Part shown: positions 1,428-42,663 of the stretch, piece by piece
Numbering within the stretch: the first letter of the stretch is position 1
Layout of the letters: every line of letters starts with the position of its first letter
Assembly: GCA_027600665.1 (NCBI GenBank)
Contig: JADGJL010000029.1
Location: 1 to 64,000, forward strand
DNA from: Irineochytrium annulatum
Taxonomy: Eukaryota; Chytridiomycota; Chytridiomycetes; Chytridiales; Chytridiaceae
Direction of reading: 5' to 3'
DNA length: 64,000 nucleotides
Program-made: the position numbers and the translations under genes
Notes under the pieces: model-generated
Seen by the model: the letters and a program-made list of their open reading frames with translations, nothing else
Told to the model about the DNA's origin: nothing
Database searches by the model: none

Positions 1428-3143
1428 CCTTCATTGCTTGCCTTTCCTTCCTCCTCGTCACCTTCCTGTCAGTCTAGCTGCTCCCCCCATCATTTCTACT
1501 TCACCGCGTCGACTGCGATCACCTTCCCCTTCCCGTTCCCCCTCCGTCTGTGGACAGGCACCCGTCATGCCTGGTTCCGCTGCGTATACACACACACTTG
1601 GGTGCTTGACCGCCGTCGTCGCCCGTCCTTGCGTGCCCCGGCGCCAGTTCAACTTATCGTCGGCGGAATCCGGATTCAACAACTCTTTGTTCGGTCCGTT
1701 TGTTGTTGGAGGGGAGTTGGTGTACGTCAATCTCATCACACAATGGTGCTGAGACATCCTCTCCATATACCAGTTCCCCTTCGAGTCCACGAATACCCGA
1801 ACAACGACCGACTCACGGCCGACTTTTGATTCGCGGCTGCTTTTCCTCTGCCGTTTCTGCAAAGCGCGTTTTCTTTAAGGCACGATTCTTGGGCTTATTG
1901 CATTGAAGTTATTTGCCAGAACATCTTGTCTTCTAAAGCGGCATATTGGATATTTTTTAAAAAGGGTTTGTCTCGTAAACTCGTCACATCTTCGAATGCT
2001 CGCATCGGCATTCAGCACCAGCAAGGATTTGCTCTGTGGAATTATGGCGTAATTTTACTTGACTTTTCTACTGAAGCTTTGTTGGCGACCGTTGACAGAT
2101 CTTTGAATAACGGAGTCAAGGTTTGCGCGATTCCAGTTATTTATCTCCCTTTCATCTCACATGCCGCCATCCGCGTTTTTCATTGAATGTTTCTTGGCCT
2201 ATGCGCCGTTGGTGTCTTACTTACCAATAAGACTCAGCTTGGTGCGAACATCTGCTGCATTTCGGTACCCCAACTTGGATTTCGCTATTCTTAGGCACTG
2301 TTATGATATGATGACCACTGCCACTGCGACGAGCTTCCACTCACACGTTGAACAACGAACGCTTGGCGCGTGCATCATTCTTAGCCCAGCGAAATAAGGG
2401 CGTTGCAGTGTGCCGCAGGCCTTCCGCTTGCGGCAGTCCACAGCGCGTGAGGAGTCTTTCCACTCCTGGCAGCCCAACATGTCGAATGTCGAGAAATCAT
2501 CGTTCGTAGATCAGGATACCCCTGGCATTCGCGCCTTCCACTAAAGGCAAGGACAAGAGTCCCGATTAGCCCTCAACCCGGCTACTGCGACGAAGTGGGG
2601 CGGCCGTAATCCCCATTCGCACCACATGTCGCGAGGCTGAACGGCATTAGTGCGTCGTGACCGATGCGCTGCCTTCGAAACCTGGCCAAGACCGTTTCCA
2701 ATTTGCGCACCAGGACGGCCCTCAAGCTTTCTTCCGCGAGTGCCGGCAATGCCGGCGCTCGTTTGCGGCCTTCAGTGCGTCCTCAGACCGGATAGGGAAG
2801 GGGAAGTGGTGAGGGTGGTCAACGGGCGGAGCGCAGGGCTGAGTACTATGAAGCGATTCACGCAGCGTCTTGTAGAAATCGTCAATGGTATACAAATAAT
2901 AATGAATTAATTCTAACACCTCATTGTAATACGCGCACCTCACTATAAACAACGCTGCTAGACTGATCGCCGGCTTTATCACGATCCACGTCAAGTCAAG
3001 TGGCCGAACAATTGACCCCAACGCCAACCGCGCGCTCTAACCCGTTTATTGCCCACCGCCCGATTGCCGCAAGCTTCCTCCCCGGCATTCCTCGCGCCCT
3101 CGTCCACGAACCCGCCCGCGCCGTCCCGACCCGCCAGCCAGCC
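1428..3143. other. Intergenic region, no supported gene
   Basis: Upstream flank of both the MMAA gene (minus) and the zinc-finger gene (plus). Several open frames of 60-180 codons overlap on both strands, but none shows a recognisable domain or splice pattern. A strong hairpin lies near 2409-2433, with TGCCGCA paired to TGCGGCA. Confidence 0.5.
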
Positions 3144-4300
3144 ATGAACGCCCTCAAGACCACCTTCTCGACCTCGCGACCGTCATCCTTTACGGCATCC
3201 CCAACCTCCGCTGGCGGCGCAATGCCTGTCACTTCAACTCTCAGCGACGACCTCGTCAACGCCGCCACCGCGTCCGCATCGAAGCACGCGGCATTCTTCC
3301 CTCCCACCTACCCTCCGTTCCCGTCGTCTTTGCAACCCATCACGCTTCCGTCCAACGTCTACCAGCAGCCCTTACCGCGACCGCCCCTCCCCGTGCCGAT
3401 GCCCATGCCGGAGTTCGTCTTCTCGAACACCTCTGCCAGCACCACTCTAGGCCCAGCGAGTCATCGGGCGTCATGGCTCCGCAGCCAGCCGCACCACCCC
3501 TATCTCCGACCCCAGTCACGCTCCTCATCCACCCCACCGTCCTCGTTCCGCCACTCGTCCCCCATCCTCTCCCCGCCTCTGCCTGTGTACGCCCTACCGC
3601 AGACGGCGCCGACCACTGTGTCGACACAGCAGTTACTGTACAACGACATCATGTCCGGCCATCGCACGCCCTCTCCAACCCCCCCGCCGCCTCCGTCCGT
3701 TCTCGGTAGCACCTTCATGCATCAATCGACGGTTCTCAGCAACACAATCACCAAGCCGTCAACCGAGGACGACGCCGCATTCATCTTCCCAACCTCTGCA
3801 AACAACGCGTCCAACGCGTCCGCGACGGACTTCTCGCTCCTCTCGACATCCGCCATCGCAGCCGCCGCAGCCGCCGCGGGTCTGCCAGGTGCGCGGCCTG
3901 TCAGCGAACCGCGCGACCGCTTCCCCACCTTCTACTCGACGCGCCCGCATCATCGGCGGTCGCGCTCTTCCGGGTCCGCCGACGGGTTAGGGAATGGTGG
4001 CGCCGAGTCGGACGGTAGCGGTGGAGGTGGAGGTGGAGCAGGCGGGGAGAAAAGAGGTGAGAGGGGGTTCGTGTGCCCGTTAAAGGGATGCGGGGCTTCG
4101 GATTTCAATAGGAGGTACAATATGGTGAGTCATTGAGGATGCTGTTTCCTGGCTTCTTCGCTAACCTTTCACGTTCTTGTTAGATTATGCATTTTAGAAG
4201 CCATGCTCGACGCGCAGGCGTTAGCATGGATGCGGTTGAGAGAGGCGCGACCATGCTGAAGGATGTGAAGCGGGGCACGATCCCCGCGTACTTCTTGTGA
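3144..4300 (+). CDS. Low-complexity protein with a C-terminal C2H2 zinc finger
   Basis: Two exons, 3144-4124 and 4184-4300, give 365 residues. The first ~310 residues are Ser/Pro/Thr/Ala-rich and probably disordered, with an alanine run and a glycine run before the finger. The single finger reads FVCPLKGCGAS...NMIMHFRSH, a C-x4-C / H-x3-H pattern, and the intron (donor gtgagt at 4125, acceptor ttgttag) splits it exactly between Met and the second half. The last ~30 residues (MDAVERGATMLKDVKRGTIPAYFL) are ordered but unfamiliar. The first ATG in the frame is at 3144. The frame stays open upstream to 3000 without an ATG, so a longer start through an unseen upstream exon is possible. A DNA-binding regulator is likely, with target unknown. 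Confidence 0.65.
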
Positions 4301-23548: not shown

Positions 23549-26500
23549 CTAATCCTCTATTTCAACCTTCTTCCCCTTCCCTTTTGGCGTCGCCCTCTTC
23601 TTCTTCACGCCGCCTTCACCCTCGCCATCCTCATCGTCCTTGGCCTTCTTTGGCCGTCCCCTCTTACTCCGCTTGGGCGTGGTTTGCGCGCTCTCTTCGG
23701 CTGACGCATCCCCGATCGACGGCGGTATCTCGCTCGATAACGACCCGAACGCGTCCTCGTGGCTCGTCGGCGCGGGCGGCGGCATCACGACCATCTGCTG
23801 GCGTATGTCCAGCGCACCGCCCGCGACGCCATCAACTCCGCTCGAAGGCGTCCCACCGACGACGCCACGCGGGTCCTGCGGGTGCGCGTACTGCGGTGGG
23901 AGGCCAGTCGAGGACGGGTCGGCGGAGGGGCCGCCAGTGACTCCGGCAGGGTGGTACTCCGCCCCTTCCACGACAACGCGTCTGCTGGGGTCGAAAGCTT
24001 CCGCTACACGCGTGTAGTTGTCAACGAAGCCCTCGTGGACGGCCTGGCTAGGGTCGACAAGGCCGACAACGTCGGGCGATGGGTGGTACTCCGCCTGTTG
24101 GGGCTGCTGGGGATGGTAGATGAAGTTCCCACTGCGGACTTCCTGCGGCGAGTCCGTCACAAAGCCGCCTGGCGCTGAGTGGTGGGCGTAGGCCGTGGTC
24201 GGGTCCGAGTGGGCATCACCAACGTAGGGGGCGGATTCGTGACTTTGCTGATAGTGACCTGCGGCGGTGCCGAAGCCGCCCTGATCGTGGACCTGCGGCA
24301 CAAACGTGTTTACCCGCGAGTCCTCCGTAACGGTCGGTTGGCCGTATTGGTGGTCGGCGTGCAAGTTGCTCACACCAATAGCGCCAGCGGCGGATGATGC
24401 AACAGCTGCCGCGGTATGGGACGCCTCCCCGCCATTACTAAGGATCATAGGAGCAAGGCGCGCGCCGTGCTGTCCGTCATCATGAAGCTCGTGCTGCGCC
24501 TGATTCGGGTCATGCGCATCCGCTCCGCCCGCGTGCTGGTTACCCCAAAGGCCGCTCGGATCGTACCCCTGCGGTTGATAGTAGGTTTGCTGCTGCTGTG
24601 GCTGCGGCTGCTGCTGTTGCTGCTGCTGCTGCGGCTGTATTGGTTGATGCTGAGGATGCTGGGGAGGCTGAGCTTGCTGTTGATGGATCGGCTGGTAAAA
24701 GTGTGTCTGGCTTTGTTCCGGGTGCGCGTTGGCCGGGTAGTAGTGAGTTGTGCCACTCGGGCCCTGCATTTGATGCATAGGGATCTGGGACGCACTGGGA
24801 CTGTGGAAACCGGAGGTCGGGTCAAAGTGCTGTTCGTAGGCGTGCTCCACAGGCCCTCCGCCAACGTGTTCCATCATAGCCGCATTTGGGGATCCAGGAA
24901 TCGTACCGCCGTTCTGTTGAGCTGTCTGCTTCGAAGTCATCGCAGCGTAATGTCCTGGTGCCCTGCCCCTGACGACAAGGGGCGCTGACTCGGCCGAGGC
25001 GACCGTGAACTGGACTCCGTCATCGCACCGGACCGACAACTCAACGACCAAGACATGATACTGCTGCGCGGCGCGGCGCTTGCCATTGTTCGCGGTCGCG
25101 GATTTGAACTGAAGGCGCTCAAAGGTTACGCTGTGAAACGAATCCTCTTGGCGCATATTGGGATCCATTGGTTCGCACAGGCGCGGTTGAGGCTGCGTCT
25201 GTGGTCCCTTGTCTCGCTTGGCGGTGTGCTGCACAAGCTCGATTTCCTTGCTCCCGTTTGCGGTGCGCGCGACGCAAGTGATCAGGAAGCCAGTGACGGT
25301 GCGCAAGCGATCCTCCATTTCCACGTAGCAAGGCAGCTCGACACGGTGACCCATGTGATCAACGGCGGTGAAAGTGGAGCTAACTTGGAAATAATTCCTT
25401 CGGTAGCAAGTCCAGTCATCGTCGGCAAGAAAGAAACCGCGATCAATCTTCGGGTAAATGCGGAGAGAGTACCTGATAAACGACAAATTGAGAATTCACT
25501 ATCAACATTAACGTTTGCTAACTTACGATTTCGTCCGGTCCAAACTCCAAATTGTTGCCTGCTGCACAGTCGGACGGAATAATGGGCCACTCTCTGAAAT
25601 CCCGCGGCCTCTCCGCGACGTGGTCTGAGTCGGCGGCGGCGGCGGCGGCGCAGGCTCCGGCAGGGCCGGGTTATATACGTCCGTATGCGGCTCAGACACC
25701 CCAACTGCATGAAGATCGGCGGAGTCTTGCATCTGCGTCATGTGCTCTGGAGGCGCGGGGTGGTACGAGTACTGCTGAGGCTGAACAGGGTGGTACTGAT
25801 GCTCCGTCTCGGGATGGTAAACGGCAGGGGACGCCTGAGCGACATACTGCGGTTGATAGTAGTTCGCGGGGATGTATGCGGTTGTGCTGTAAAACTTATA
25901 AGCAAGCGGAGCGACCAGGTCTCCAAAAGGCTTACTAGGCGAGAGGCCGGTTGTTCTCATAGCTGTACTGTATATATTGCGGTTCCTGAGTGACCTGTTG
26001 AATCGGCATCGGCACACCGGGTAAAGCGATGTTGCCTATGTCGAAGTGTTAAGAGATCCCACTCTCTGATGCACCCACCATCTGTAACCATGCCGGGCCT
26101 CGACCCGGCGCCTTGATCCACTACGACCTGCTGAAAGTGCTGCTGCGGCTGGGGCTGGGGTACTTGCTGCTGTTGCTGTTGTTGTTGCTGTTGTTGTTGT
26201 TGCTGCTGCTGCATGCTTGGATGCGGCGACTGGACGGCCTGCGCCATCACCACGTGCTGCACCTGCTGCGGCATCCCATCCCCAATAACAGGCGTCGTTA
26301 GACCCCCAATAACACCGCCAGGCGTGGTGACCGCGCCGCCCGTCACCTCCGGCAATTCCTGTCCTCGGGCGACCTGCACCCGCAGCGGGCTCCCAACATC
26401 CGGCAGGCGTTGTTGCTGCCCACCACGCGGCGTCTGCGGCGTACGCGGCGGCTGGTGCTGCTGATCCTGCTGCAGCTGCACGGGCAGGTCCGGCCTCGCG

Positions 26501-36729: not shown

Positions 36730-39700
36730 ATGTCGTCCGCCGTCATGGCCCTGGTCCTGGCCGTCATCCTGGCCCTCATCCTCCCGCAGGCACATTCGTC
36801 CCGCTCTCGTGCTCCGTCCTTCACGCTGAAGCCATGGCTCGAATCCGAGCACCGGGCACGCGGCGGATGGGTCCACGTTGACGCCCGCCCGCGCCTGGCT
36901 CAGCTTGAACGGGCCACGCTGAATGCCTCCACTTCCTCCTCCTCGACGGAGACCAAGGACTTCGCCGTGGCCGGAAACGTGCGGCGCCAGAATCCCGAGC
37001 AGGCTACCGACGGCACATGGTCGTACTTCTCGTACCAAAACTACACGATGGACCCGCTCCGCTACTCTGGTGGATACTTAATGACGTCTCAGGTTGACGT
37101 CTACCTCATCTGGTACGGCAAGTGGACGGCCAAGCGGATGGCGTCGGCGAAGGCTTTCATCAACGACATGTCGTCCCACTCGTACTGGGGCGTCGTGAAG
37201 CAGTATGGCGTCGTGGGAAGCCTGGGAGTGGCGGGTGTGTACGAGGATCCGCATTACATGCAGGGGATAAACATCAATGGAATCTATGGAGGCACCTACA
37301 ACACGTCAGGCGATATCATAAATTACGCTGTAAAAACGGGAAAGATCGCGCAGCAGCCTTTTGCAATGTATGCCGTGATGATGGACACGGCCGCTTCTTC
37401 CGTCGAGCTCTGTATTGAGGGCGGTTGCCGTATGTTTCTTGTATTTTGATTGTCAACGTCGATGTTGAACACCGGACACTTTACAGAACAGCACTACCTA
37501 AATTGGTTCGAGGACGGATCAACCTACCAGCTCATTGATGCCCCCTCGGTTGCCGTTTGCTCGTGTTCGTCGGGTTTGCCGGATAGCCTGAGTCCCAGTG
37601 GAGACGCTGCCATGGATGATACGCTCTCTGGCCTTATTCATGAAATTATTGAGACTGGTGAGTTTGGTAAACGTTCAACAATAGCAAGCATTCCCTGCAT
37701 GTTAACAAAGTTTCGGTGATCAAGTCACCGACTACGACAACTATTACGGTTGGCTTGACCTTGAGAACAACGAGATTATGGACAAATGCTATGCAGACTA
37801 CGGACCTACGTTCCAAAACGCGTCGATTGTTTACAACCTCGACTTGCCGGTTGCGGGCAAGTGAGTATCGCATTGCTCTTGAAATGGCGAGACTTACGTA
37901 ATAAATAGATTTTTTATCCAATCCATTTGGGATAATGAGCGGGACGGTAGGAATGATTCTTTAACGTACACTGCACGCACGTCTCTAATTAGAACCTACG
38001 TGTAGGTTGCTTCCTTACGTCGGCTAACTACACCCCGCCAGCCCCTTATATCCAGCCCGTCGTTCCGCCATCTCAGATCCAGCTCCGCGGCAACATGACG
38101 GACTGCCAGGTGCTCGCACTCTCTTTCCCGACTATCAATTTCGGCGCCGACTGCTGCCAATGGTCATCGACAAAAGGGGAGGGCATCGTGAGCTGCGACA
38201 AAAAGAAGAGCGTCACACAGCTGACCATTGCCAACGAAGGACTGAATGGGACGCTGCCAGCCATGTTGTCGACGTTGTATAATTTGCAATACCTGTGAGT
38301 TCTCGCCTTGTCAACTTGCGTTTACCCGATCTAACACCGGACGATAGCAACCTGTCCCACAATGCACTCCACGGCGACGTGCCGGCGTCCTACGCGTGGA
38401 ACGATCTCTCCTCACTAGACTTAAGCTTTAACAAGTTGAGTGGCTCGCCCGTCAACCTGCAATACCTGACTACCCTCGGGAGTTTGTAAGCTACATTGCT
38501 TCATATGTCAAGACCTAAACATTTTTCAGGTATCTAAACGACAACAACTTTACGGGCAACCTGGCGGATTACTCAAGATTTTCGTACGGGATTGGCGTCA
38601 TGTAAGCTATGTTTCCCCCTCGCCCTAATCGATGTGATCAAAATTCTCACGAAAATTAGAAACTTGGGCAACAACCACTTTTACGGCTCAGTCCCCGATT
38701 GGCTCGGCTCGGTGCCCTTGTACGAGGTCTATCTGCACAACAACAACCTCACAGGTCCGATCCCGCCCTCGCTCGCTCTGTCGACCTGCAACATTATGTG
38801 AGCTGCACACCAGTGACATACTCCCGATACTCTGCTAACCGCAACAAAACCAGCGACCTATCCTACAACCACCTCTCCGGACCCCTCCCCTCCGCCCTCG
38901 TCAACCTCGCCCTCCAGGGCTACATCGTGTGGTTCAACCTCGAGGGCAATTACGGCCTCACCGGCACGATCCCATCGTCCCTTGCCGGCATCGCCAGCTT
39001 CCCGAACACGGGTGCCATCTCGTTCGTCGCCGAAACGACGAGCATCGTGTATAGCTGCACGCACGACACGTGCGAGGAGGGCGCGCCGATGGGGTTGCAT
39101 TGTGGGCCGTGCGAGAGGGTCGTTACGGCGCTGGACGCGTGGTGTGGGAGCATGTGGTGGGATGTAATTTGCGTAAAAGAGGTGGAGATGCATTGCAATC
39201 GGACCTGTGTAAGTATCGCTAAACCTATTTCTCTTTCCATTTCTGGGTTGCTACCAATCAGCCGCTCCCTTTGCGAGTTAATGCTGTAACATTGCTCTTT
39301 CTCCCCTCAGACTCCACCTAATGTCGGAAAAACGATGTCACTGCCCCCCTCGTATGCGCCGTGCGCACACGACGTTTGCGTCCCCGGCGCGGCGCTGGAT
39401 ATGAGCTGCAGCCCGTGCGCTAACAACGTGACGTCCTCGGACTATATTTGCGGACTCGTCGCATGGGATCTCACGTGCGTCCACGAGGCCGAGGAGTACT
39501 GCGGGATTACATGCGTGAGTGTCTATCCTTGTCAATTCATTAATTTCGCCGCTTATTGAATTGAAATTGTAACAATGACACAACACACAGCCGCAGACTG
39601 CGACCGCGACCGCGGCGGACAACTACAAGGCACCCGCGAGTGTTCGACAAGTTGGCCAAACCGATTGCGGTCTGCTTATGCAGGCATTCCCGAGCCTCCA

Positions 39701-41088
39701 CTACGACTCAGGATGCTGCAATCTTAGCCCGAAAGAGCTCATCTGCGATAGCAATGGATCCATTACATACCTGTATGTATAGGATGACGCTGCGCAATTT
39801 TTTACGACTCTTCCTGGAACCCAAGCATTGACGCATTCCGTTTTTAAGATCTCTCCACGGACGCGCTCTCAGCGGCCCTATCCCGACTCAAATTGCCTCC
39901 TTGACGTCAATCACCTACCTCGACCTCTCATCGAACTCCCTCACGGGCGATATGTCGCCTCTCCTCGCGCTGAAAAACATCACCAATATCAACCTTGCCT
40001 ACAACGGCCTCACCGGAACCTTACCGCAAGGGCTTGGTAACCTGACGAACCTCAAGTCCCTCAACGTGAGCTCGAACGAGCTCCAAGGGGCCTTGCCGAC
40101 GTCGTTCGGGAACCTGATGCGGCTTGCGACGCTGTAAGTCCCTCCTATTATGCCGATCATCAGGTCGCGCTTGTTGACACGATGGATATTTTTAGGGACG
40201 TGTCGTGGAATAACCTTACAGGGCCGTTGACGGCGGACTTGAGTGGGATGATCAACTTGCAGAAACTGAACATGAGAGGCAACGCGATAACGGGCGTGAT
40301 CCCTGCCTGGTTGGAGTTTTGCTCCGGCCTCTCCTACCTAGATCTGGCGTCAAATCGATTCTATGGGACTATACCATCCTTCCTAGGGGAATTGACGCAG
40401 CTGCAAGTTTTGTAAGCTTCGCGTACATTGCTCGTATTGCGGCCAGTGATTTGATTCTTATTTCTCTCTGTCAGGCGGCTCTCGGACAATCGTCTCTCTG
40501 GCATCATTCCGGACTCCTTCGTGGACGCATACCTGCTTTGGGATCTGGAGATCGACATAAACGCCTTCAACGGACCAGTCGTCCCTATCGGCTTGGACCT
40601 AGACTACGTGATGTAAGAAGTAGCTCTTTAAAAGGCAGACGCTATAACATCCGACCCTAATTTCTTCACCGTTTTGCAGATACGACGTCGGCCGAGTCCT
40701 CTACCAGAAGGAGCCCGTCGGCAACTGCAGCCACGGTTTTGCAAACGTCGGCGCGCCTCTTCAGCCGGATTGCGGTCCTTGCGTCGAGACCGTAGTAAAG
40801 AATGACGCGTTCTGTAGTAATGTCGCGTGGGACTCCATCTGCGTCTCGCAGGCCGCCACGTGCCCAGCGCCAACCAAGGCGCCCGCGAGAGGGTTTGTGG
40901 CGACTGCAGTGGCGACCGGCACCCCGATGGCAGTGTTCGTTACCACGTCCGTGAAGAGTGGACCGGGACCGAAGGTGACGGCGGGGTCACCACTTGTGGT
41001 TAAAAGTAGTTCAAAACGGGTTGGCGTCTCGAGGTTGATGCTGGCGGGTTGCTTATACTTCCTTTTGGCGGCAACTGTGCAGATGTAG
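36730..41088 (+). CDS. EXORDIUM/PHI-1 domain protein with two LRR blocks and Cys modules, C-terminal anchor
   Basis: Fifteen exons (36730-37429, 37487-37657, 37725-37860, 37909-37946, 38006-38294, 38348-38485, 38530-38601, 38660-38797, 38854-39208, 39311-39514, 39591-39772, 39849-40133, 40196-40411, 40475-40612, 40680-41088) give 1156 residues. A signal peptide covers 1-24. An EXORDIUM (phosphate-induced protein 1) domain spans ~95-352: VDVYLIWYGKW, CIEGGCQQHY, LSGLIHEIIETVTDYDNYYG, FFIQSIWDNERDGC. Then an LRR cap (DCCQWSSTKGEGIVSC) and plant-type LRRs (~420-590), two Cys modules (~628-747), a second cap (SGCCNLSPKELICDSNGS), a second LRR block (~808-1020), a third Cys module (~1035-1085), a Ser/Thr/Lys-rich stalk and a hydrophobic C-terminus (LMLAGCLYFLLAATV) that suggests a GPI or membrane anchor. 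Likely a cell-surface protein; ligand and role unknown. Confidence 0.88.
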
Positions 41089-41606: not shown

Positions 41607-42279
41607 TCAGAACCGAACGTTGGCGTTAACGCAGGCAATGCTCTGCTTGTCGGCGGTGTATAGGTCGATGTGAGCGGTGTAGCGTCCCTGTAACACCAAG
41701 GTCAGAATCGCAGCTATATTACCACAAATCGCGGGATACTCACGGGCGGCACCTCGGCCGGAACGGTGAAGGTGTGGCTCACGACCGTGTCACCCTTCGG
41801 CAGCGGGCAGCTCTTGCCTACAGATTTGATTTGCTCACAGAGGTCGAGCTCTGCCTCGACAAGCTTGATCGGGCCTAGCTTCACGGTGGCCTACATGAAG
41901 GAAAATGACGGGTTAAAAACACATACAGGAGATTCTGCATGGGTGGCACAACCGTCTATCCCTCTGCCGACCTCCGCACCCACCCTCGAACGAACTCCAG
42001 CAACGCCTAAATCAAGCCCAGGACACATACCCTCATCTTGGCGCCATCAGTCACTTCCTCCTTTAGGACTCCAACCACTGTGATGGTGGTGAGGTCACCC
42101 CGGTGGACGGGGTCGGGGTTGACGGTGAGGGACGTCAGCGTCAGGAGATCGGTGGCCGCCGAGCCGCAGTTGGAAATGGACGGGAGGTCCGCACGGGAGA
42201 AAAGGCGAGGCACCTCAGCGACGGCCAAGCTGGACGAGGCCAGGACGGCCGAAAAGACCACACCCCGGGAGAAGACCAT
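41607..42279 (-). CDS. NPC2/ML-domain lipid transfer protein
   Basis: Three exons (42279-42031, 41890-41744, 41687-41607) give 158 residues. A signal peptide is visible at 1-21 (FSAVLASSSLAVA). The ML domain follows: ISNCGSAATDLLTLTSLTVN, PVHRGDLTTITVVGVLKEEV, ATVKLGPIKLVEAELDLCEQ, GKSCPLPKGDTVVSHTFTVP and GRYTAHIDLYTADKQSIACV ending NANVRF. Six cysteines are placed as in NPC2 and the fungal phosphatidylglycerol/phosphatidylinositol transfer proteins. These secreted or vacuolar proteins bind sterols or phospholipids. Length and order are typical of the family. Confidence 0.93.
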
Positions 42280-42663
42280 CTTCAGGGATCGGTGCGGGGA
42301 GGCGGGAAGGGGGGGGGCGACGCCCAGGTCGGGTGGCCGGGTGATGGCACGCACGGGATGGGATGGTCGAGGCGGAGGCGCGGCACAAAAAGGTTTCAGA
42401 TGACTGAATTGTGATTTCCTCCATCGAGTCTGCATTGCTTGCATATGCTGCATATTTGCTAACGACTCCGACATGTAAGAAATTCTATTGTATTCAAGAA
42501 GCCGCAAAATAAAATCTAGTCCTCGAGCCAAAAACTAACACTAAAGGTCATGGAATCCAAGGAACCAACAAGAACAGGGATATGTGCAGCAATGCCGGAG
42601 GCAACGAGAAAAATAAAAGGGGGTGAGTGGTGGAAGCATAAAACAAGCAGGGTCCGATTCCAA

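Follow-up and report, generated by a model that had tools for sequence, protein, structure and literature searches.

The window analysed here, the first 64,000 nucleotides of contig JADGJL010000029.1 from the chytrid Irineochytrium annulatum (a 26.9-Mb draft assembly of 1082 contigs), carries a gene, HK101_006249, in which an EXORDIUM/PHI-1 (EXO) domain is joined to two blocks of leucine-rich repeats (LRRs). The gene occupies positions 36730..41088 of the plus strand, on which all of its features described below lie, and encodes 1156 residues in 15 exons: 36730-37429, 37487-37657, 37725-37860, 37909-37946, 38006-38294, 38348-38485, 38530-38601, 38660-38797, 38854-39208, 39311-39514, 39591-39772, 39849-40133, 40196-40411, 40475-40612 and 40680-41088. 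All 14 introns are of the GT..AG type and are 44-102 nt long, and the spliced exons form a frame that is stop-free, as originally predicted, and has 1156 codons, with a translation identical to the NCBI protein HK101_006249 of I. annulatum. From its N-terminus the protein comprises a signal peptide, a spacer of ~86 residues, the EXO domain, a DC..CC..C cap, LRR block 1 and two cysteine (Cys) modules; a second cap, LRR block 2 and a third Cys module come next, and a tail of low complexity leads to the hydrophobic end. The presence of EXO and LRR parts in one predicted protein is confirmed for HK101_006249.

The junction between the two parts is bridged by a single exon. Exon 5 (38006..38294) encodes the last conserved Cys of the EXO domain, C350 (38008-38010), followed by a linker, the first LRR cap (from 38101) and the first LRR, and its open stretch contains no ATG upstream of the cap's own Met379. 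Because C350 shares this exon with the cap, a transcript ending earlier would lose a conserved EXO residue. A paralogue on a second contig, C596, repeats this arrangement part for part in a spliced product of 1263 residues, the C-terminus of which is tentative: read-through meets a stop past a Pro-rich tail, and there may be a final intron. The two proteins are 39.0% identical over 1085 aligned residues (EXO 39.5%, LRR block 1 42.1%, Cys modules 1 and 2 50.5%, LRR block 2 37.3%). Ten of the 14 introns have a counterpart in the paralogue that is identical in alignment column and phase, including the phase 1 intron 4 at the EXO/LRR junction (37947..38005); the other four do not. A tree of 31 EXO or EXO-like sequences, none of them from plants, places the two fusion EXO domains together with a support of 100, and a gene on contig C783 joins them with a support of 99 for the three. 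The content of exon 5, the paralogue with its shared intron 4 and the grouping in the EXO tree together argue that the join is real, and the simplest reading is that fusion preceded the duplication of the two EXO-LRR genes. As the tree contains no plant EXO, a plant and a bacterial source of the chytrid domain are indistinguishable in it. The C783 gene itself (locus L012, ~2700-4300) encodes an EXO domain without LRRs, followed by ~180 residues without a Pfam match.

Both the signal peptide and the EXO domain of the original prediction were recovered. The former, judged by hydropathy alone (1.88-2.83 in 17-residue windows starting at residues 1-8), covers approximately residues 1-23 (36730..36798). 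The EXO domain, delimited by Pfam and by alignment with EXO relatives, spans residues 110-351 (37057..38013, exons 1-5) and matches positions 1-274 of the 276-position Phi_1 profile (PF04674) at 36.2 bits, where the cut-off is 25. With 242 of 1156 residues assigned to this domain, HK101_006249 is an EXO-containing rather than a stand-alone EXO protein. Its HExxE motif, H285-E-I-I-E289 (37639..37653), is a putative metal site with a putative catalytic Glu. The columns of H285, E286, E289, D293, E307, D310, C312 and C350 are conserved in 120/120 relatives (the 120 listed of 2362), and HExxE, D293, E307, D310, C312 and the final Cys are kept in all three chytrid EXO domains, those of HK101_006249, the C596 paralogue and the C783 gene. 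The zinc motif HExxHxxGxxH/D is absent from HK101_006249 and from the 120 listed relatives, all of which have HExxE...D.

The fold predicted for one bacterial relative of EXO appears metzincin-like, with the HE in a long helix, and the EXO head is most likely an HExxE-type metzincin-like metal-binding domain, which would be a protease or a relative that binds peptides. Sequence comparison of EXO with solved metzincins gave no match, returning only weak transglutaminase matches, and CLCA and VWA families were found neither in HK101_006249 (Pfam E<=1) nor in the EXO proteins scanned (E<=5). A full-length AlphaFold2 model of HK101_006249 is of too low quality for arm geometry; the 50 Foldseek rows listed for it are LRR proteins and include no metzincin, a result with no bearing on the EXO fold. 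Of four loci inspected among matches to Reprolysin_4, two gave a readable HExxH stretch.

Behind the EXO domain, DC...CC...C caps precede both LRR blocks, at residues 381 and 772 (cap 2, residues 772-800, 39663..39749), and Pfam places LRR_1 (104 bits) and LRR_8 (95 bits) above their cut-offs, so that the predicted pair of separately capped blocks is borne out. Block 1 covers approximately residues 430-628 (38250..39055, exons 5-9), with its pattern-matched repeats in residues 442-570, and block 2 has eight such repeats in residues 829-1008 (39849..40612); a strict pattern finds five and eight repeats in the two blocks, and a looser one six and eight. The closest solved structures by sequence in the PDB are the plant LRR receptor ectodomains GSO1, FLS2 and MIK2, in agreement with the plant-type consensus noted earlier. 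Two Cys modules follow block 1 (residues 629-675, 39056-39196, and residues 697-743, 39362-39502, separated by the intron at 39209-39310) and one follows block 2 (residues 1037-1082, 40726..40863). A pairwise alignment of the two cap-LRR-Cys halves (E 8e-38 for two sequences) has 96 identical columns out of 341 (28%), which supports the proposed internal duplication, although the protein carries three Cys modules instead of the two that a plain doubling had implied.

The Cys module of HK101_006249 has no Pfam match. It occurs at 14 places on nine contigs of the I. annulatum genome and seems to be attached quite generally to secreted proteins in this fungus. Locus L061 at C434:16719-17342 (+) encodes an EXO-like domain that has HELAE..TD..GENGDIC and is not matched by Pfam Phi_1; a Thr-rich linker and then a Cys module follow it, so that each of the two modules is seen here with a different partner. 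Regions 38-85% identical to this EXO-like domain lie on C190 (two places), C323, C403, C301, C372 and C540, and HELxExxTD was read directly at both C190 places, C323 and C403, but not at C301 or C372. At C893:9994-10470 (-) (locus L060), two Cys modules stand behind a secreted protein that we take to be an S1/P1-type nuclease look-alike. None of 12 EXO-bearing bacterial genomes matched the module, a result that carries no weight on a bacterial source. LRR-block matches were found at C376, C569, C974, C972, C656, C559 and C770 (E 1e-10 to 2.5e-6).

These features are best explained by a single gene for a secreted surface protein that combines a metzincin-like EXO head, LRR recognition arms, Cys accessories and a glycosylphosphatidylinositol (GPI)-type anchor, a reading that we hold with middling confidence. 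In such a protein the two cap-LRR-Cys arms would offer a recognition surface that selects the target, which may be a peptide or a cell-wall or host/prey glycoprotein bound via the LRRs; the EXO head would hold or trim the bound target at the cell surface, and the Cys modules would be accessories also attached to other secreted proteins of the fungus. The gene, its fused structure, the C596 paralogue, the conserved residues resembling a metal site and the fold prediction for the bacterial relative are observations; secretion, GPI anchoring, metal binding, proteolysis and the nature of the target are inferred. We more tentatively extend this to the proposal that EXORDIUM/PHI-1 proteins are HExxE metzincin-like metallopeptidases and that, with duplicated LRR arms and an anchor added, HK101_006249 could be an ADAM-like surface protease. 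For such a protease, with recognition repeats in the style of plants, the searches made returned no fungal precedent.

To an alternative in which the gene is fused in the same way we give the same tentative standing: the EXO head may be catalytically dead, or bind sugars or peptides, and the protein may act as an adhesin or as a sensor of extracellular carbon status. Plant EXO works in the apoplast, where its proposed role is to integrate growth with the carbon status outside the cell (PMC3691544; this and the other publications are cited from partial text), a Glu stands where zincins have their second zinc His, inactive zincin-like proteins are on record (PMC3650047), and peptidase family models gave no match. 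Against a dead head, the invariance of the H285, E286, E289, D293, E307 and D310 columns in the 120 listed relatives is stricter than a dead site would predict, and zinc-dependent proteolysis is ascribed to the CLCA proteins, which also have HExxE (PMC6851300). Plant EXO ties growth to brassinosteroid and carbon status, and no biochemical activity is named in the portions of these accounts that we cite (PMC2661892; PMC3691544). The predicted metzincin-like fold and the non-varying metal-site signature would offer a direct handle on EXO biochemistry, and if the head does cut or hold an LRR-bound target, this would hint at extracellular peptides or glycoproteins as the targets of EXO proteins that stand alone.

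The hydrophobic C-terminal anchor of the original prediction stood in part. A hydrophobic stretch, residues 1140-1156 (41035..41085), lies directly before the stop (hydropathy 1.65-1.87 in 17-residue windows from residue 1135 to 1140) and reaches the last residue, with zero residues beyond it and hence no cytoplasmic tail; apart from the signal peptide, just one further window, weak and located at residues 1092-1109, exceeds 1.5. The stretch resembles a GPI signal, and we infer a GPI-type anchor. No kinase was found among the Pfam matches, as foreseen. The description of the protein as receptor-like, with a signalling partner, implies a membrane span and an inside part and is not borne out: a signal peptide and capped LRRs are present, and a transmembrane helix with a cytoplasmic part is not. 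It is accordingly improbable that HK101_006249 is a plant-like receptor protein that spans the membrane and signals with a partner kinase. The plant LRR receptor ectodomains found as best PDB matches and the hydrophobic C-terminus speak for such a receptor; against it, nothing is left for the cytoplasm, so that signalling through a partner is conjecture, and fungi are said to almost lack LRR receptors in the text available of one survey (PMC2939053).

It is very improbable that gene prediction wrongly merged neighbouring EXO and LRR genes. The public protein may itself be a mere gene prediction, and a separate upstream exon for the LRR gene is formally possible, but exon 5 carries both C350 and the cap with no ATG ahead of the latter, and the C596 paralogue shows the same join on another contig, with the intron at the same place and in the same phase; we therefore reject the two-gene model. 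A scan for sigma-70-type promoters and terminators at the junction, a type of scan unsuited to fungi, found nothing. That the locus is a contaminant or has decayed and lacks a function, conceivable in a draft assembly of this many contigs, is just as improbable in view of the 15 stop-free exons, a paralogue diverged to 39% identity that is also stop-free up to its Pro-rich tail, and the other eukaryotic genes on the contig, for example one for an NDT80/PhoG-like protein.

The EXO-LRR protein shares features with several known systems. Like EXORDIUM/PHI-1 proteins (PF04674; Arabidopsis EXO and EXL1), it has a signal peptide, a near-full Phi_1 profile and the conserved C..H, HExxE...D, D.C and final Cys, but in plant EXO the conserved region makes up nearly the entire ~300-residue protein (PMC2661892), whereas here it heads a fungal LRR protein of 1156 residues. 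Its plant-type LRRs stand behind a Cys cap, as in plant PGIP, receptor-like proteins and LRR receptor kinases; unlike these, it has no kinase match or cytoplasmic tail, its LRR blocks close with a Cys module, and its N-terminal head is enzyme-like. The head may resemble metzincins (adamalysins/ADAMs, archaemetzincin) in the predicted fold of the bacterial relative, with the HE in a long helix, and differs from them in having HExxE...D in place of HExxHxxGxxH/D and in the lack of any sequence match found. CLCA proteins are secreted metalloproteases with the HExxE variant of the zinc site (PMC6851300), but no CLCA or VWA family match was seen in the EXO proteins scanned, CLCA is reported absent from fungi (PMC3650047), and the CLCA descriptions, in the portions cited, mention no LRR. 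Secreted LRR proteins are rare in fungi, with fifteen potential examples in 10 species (Soanes & Talbot 2010; PMC2939053). HK101_006249 is like these in combining LRRs with a signal peptide; the cited part of that survey does not mention EXO, and describes its five remaining fungal LRR-receptors as having no other predicted functional domain. The fusion shows a fungus deploying duplicated LRR arms of the plant type together with an enzyme-like head that precedes them; surface LRR receptors are reported to be nearly absent from the fungal kingdom (PMC2939053).

We searched for further fusions among 5.8 billion proteins with the EXO part as query, retaining candidates of 0.55-1.75 times 1156 residues. 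Only HK101_006249 itself was found to carry EXO and LRRs (1 of 957 candidates), and an X-padded two-sequence profile search again returned only this protein (1 of 7993 scored). The claim of a new architecture is supported to the extent that neither search produced a second species; both also missed the known C596 paralogue, and the empty result for other species therefore has little weight. In HK101_006249 known parts are newly combined, and the genome of this chytrid contains the combination twice. Word searches of the literature, with most subscription papers outside their scope, found no description of EXO in chytrids, of EXO-LRR fusions or of EXO as a zincin.

EXO domains alone are far more widespread. 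Among 7996 scored candidates, 2362 EXO proteins were found at E<=1e-5, and PF04674 is present in all 120 of those listed, of which the five with a named organism are all bacterial (Acidobacteria, Acidimicrobiaceae, Paludibaculum (two) and Eisenbacteria). In prokaryote genomes, 74 pattern matches led to 12 EXO loci, which belong to Actinobacteria, Limnohabitans, Myxococcales, Acidobacteria and others. The view that EXO is known mainly from plants agrees with a 2009 paper that, in the text cited, reports a single homologue from bacteria and no fungal one (PMC2661892), but it is incomplete in light of these matches. As the searches lean bacterial (two of five queries bacterial, a prokaryotic genome collection and plants unsampled), they point to a large bacterial EXO branch but give no ratio of plant to bacterial proteins. 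One myxococcal EXO-like protein (L017:3065-5176) carries two bacterial pre-peptidase C-terminal (PPC) domains. On viral contigs, two of 51 candidate stretches (L025 and L026) match 51 EXO residues only, at 38% identity.

Elsewhere in the window, the EXO-LRR gene is adjoined by one for an ML-domain (E1_DerP2_DerF2) protein at 42007-42534 (-), and the NDT80/PhoG-like DNA-binding protein is encoded at 23552-25495 (-).
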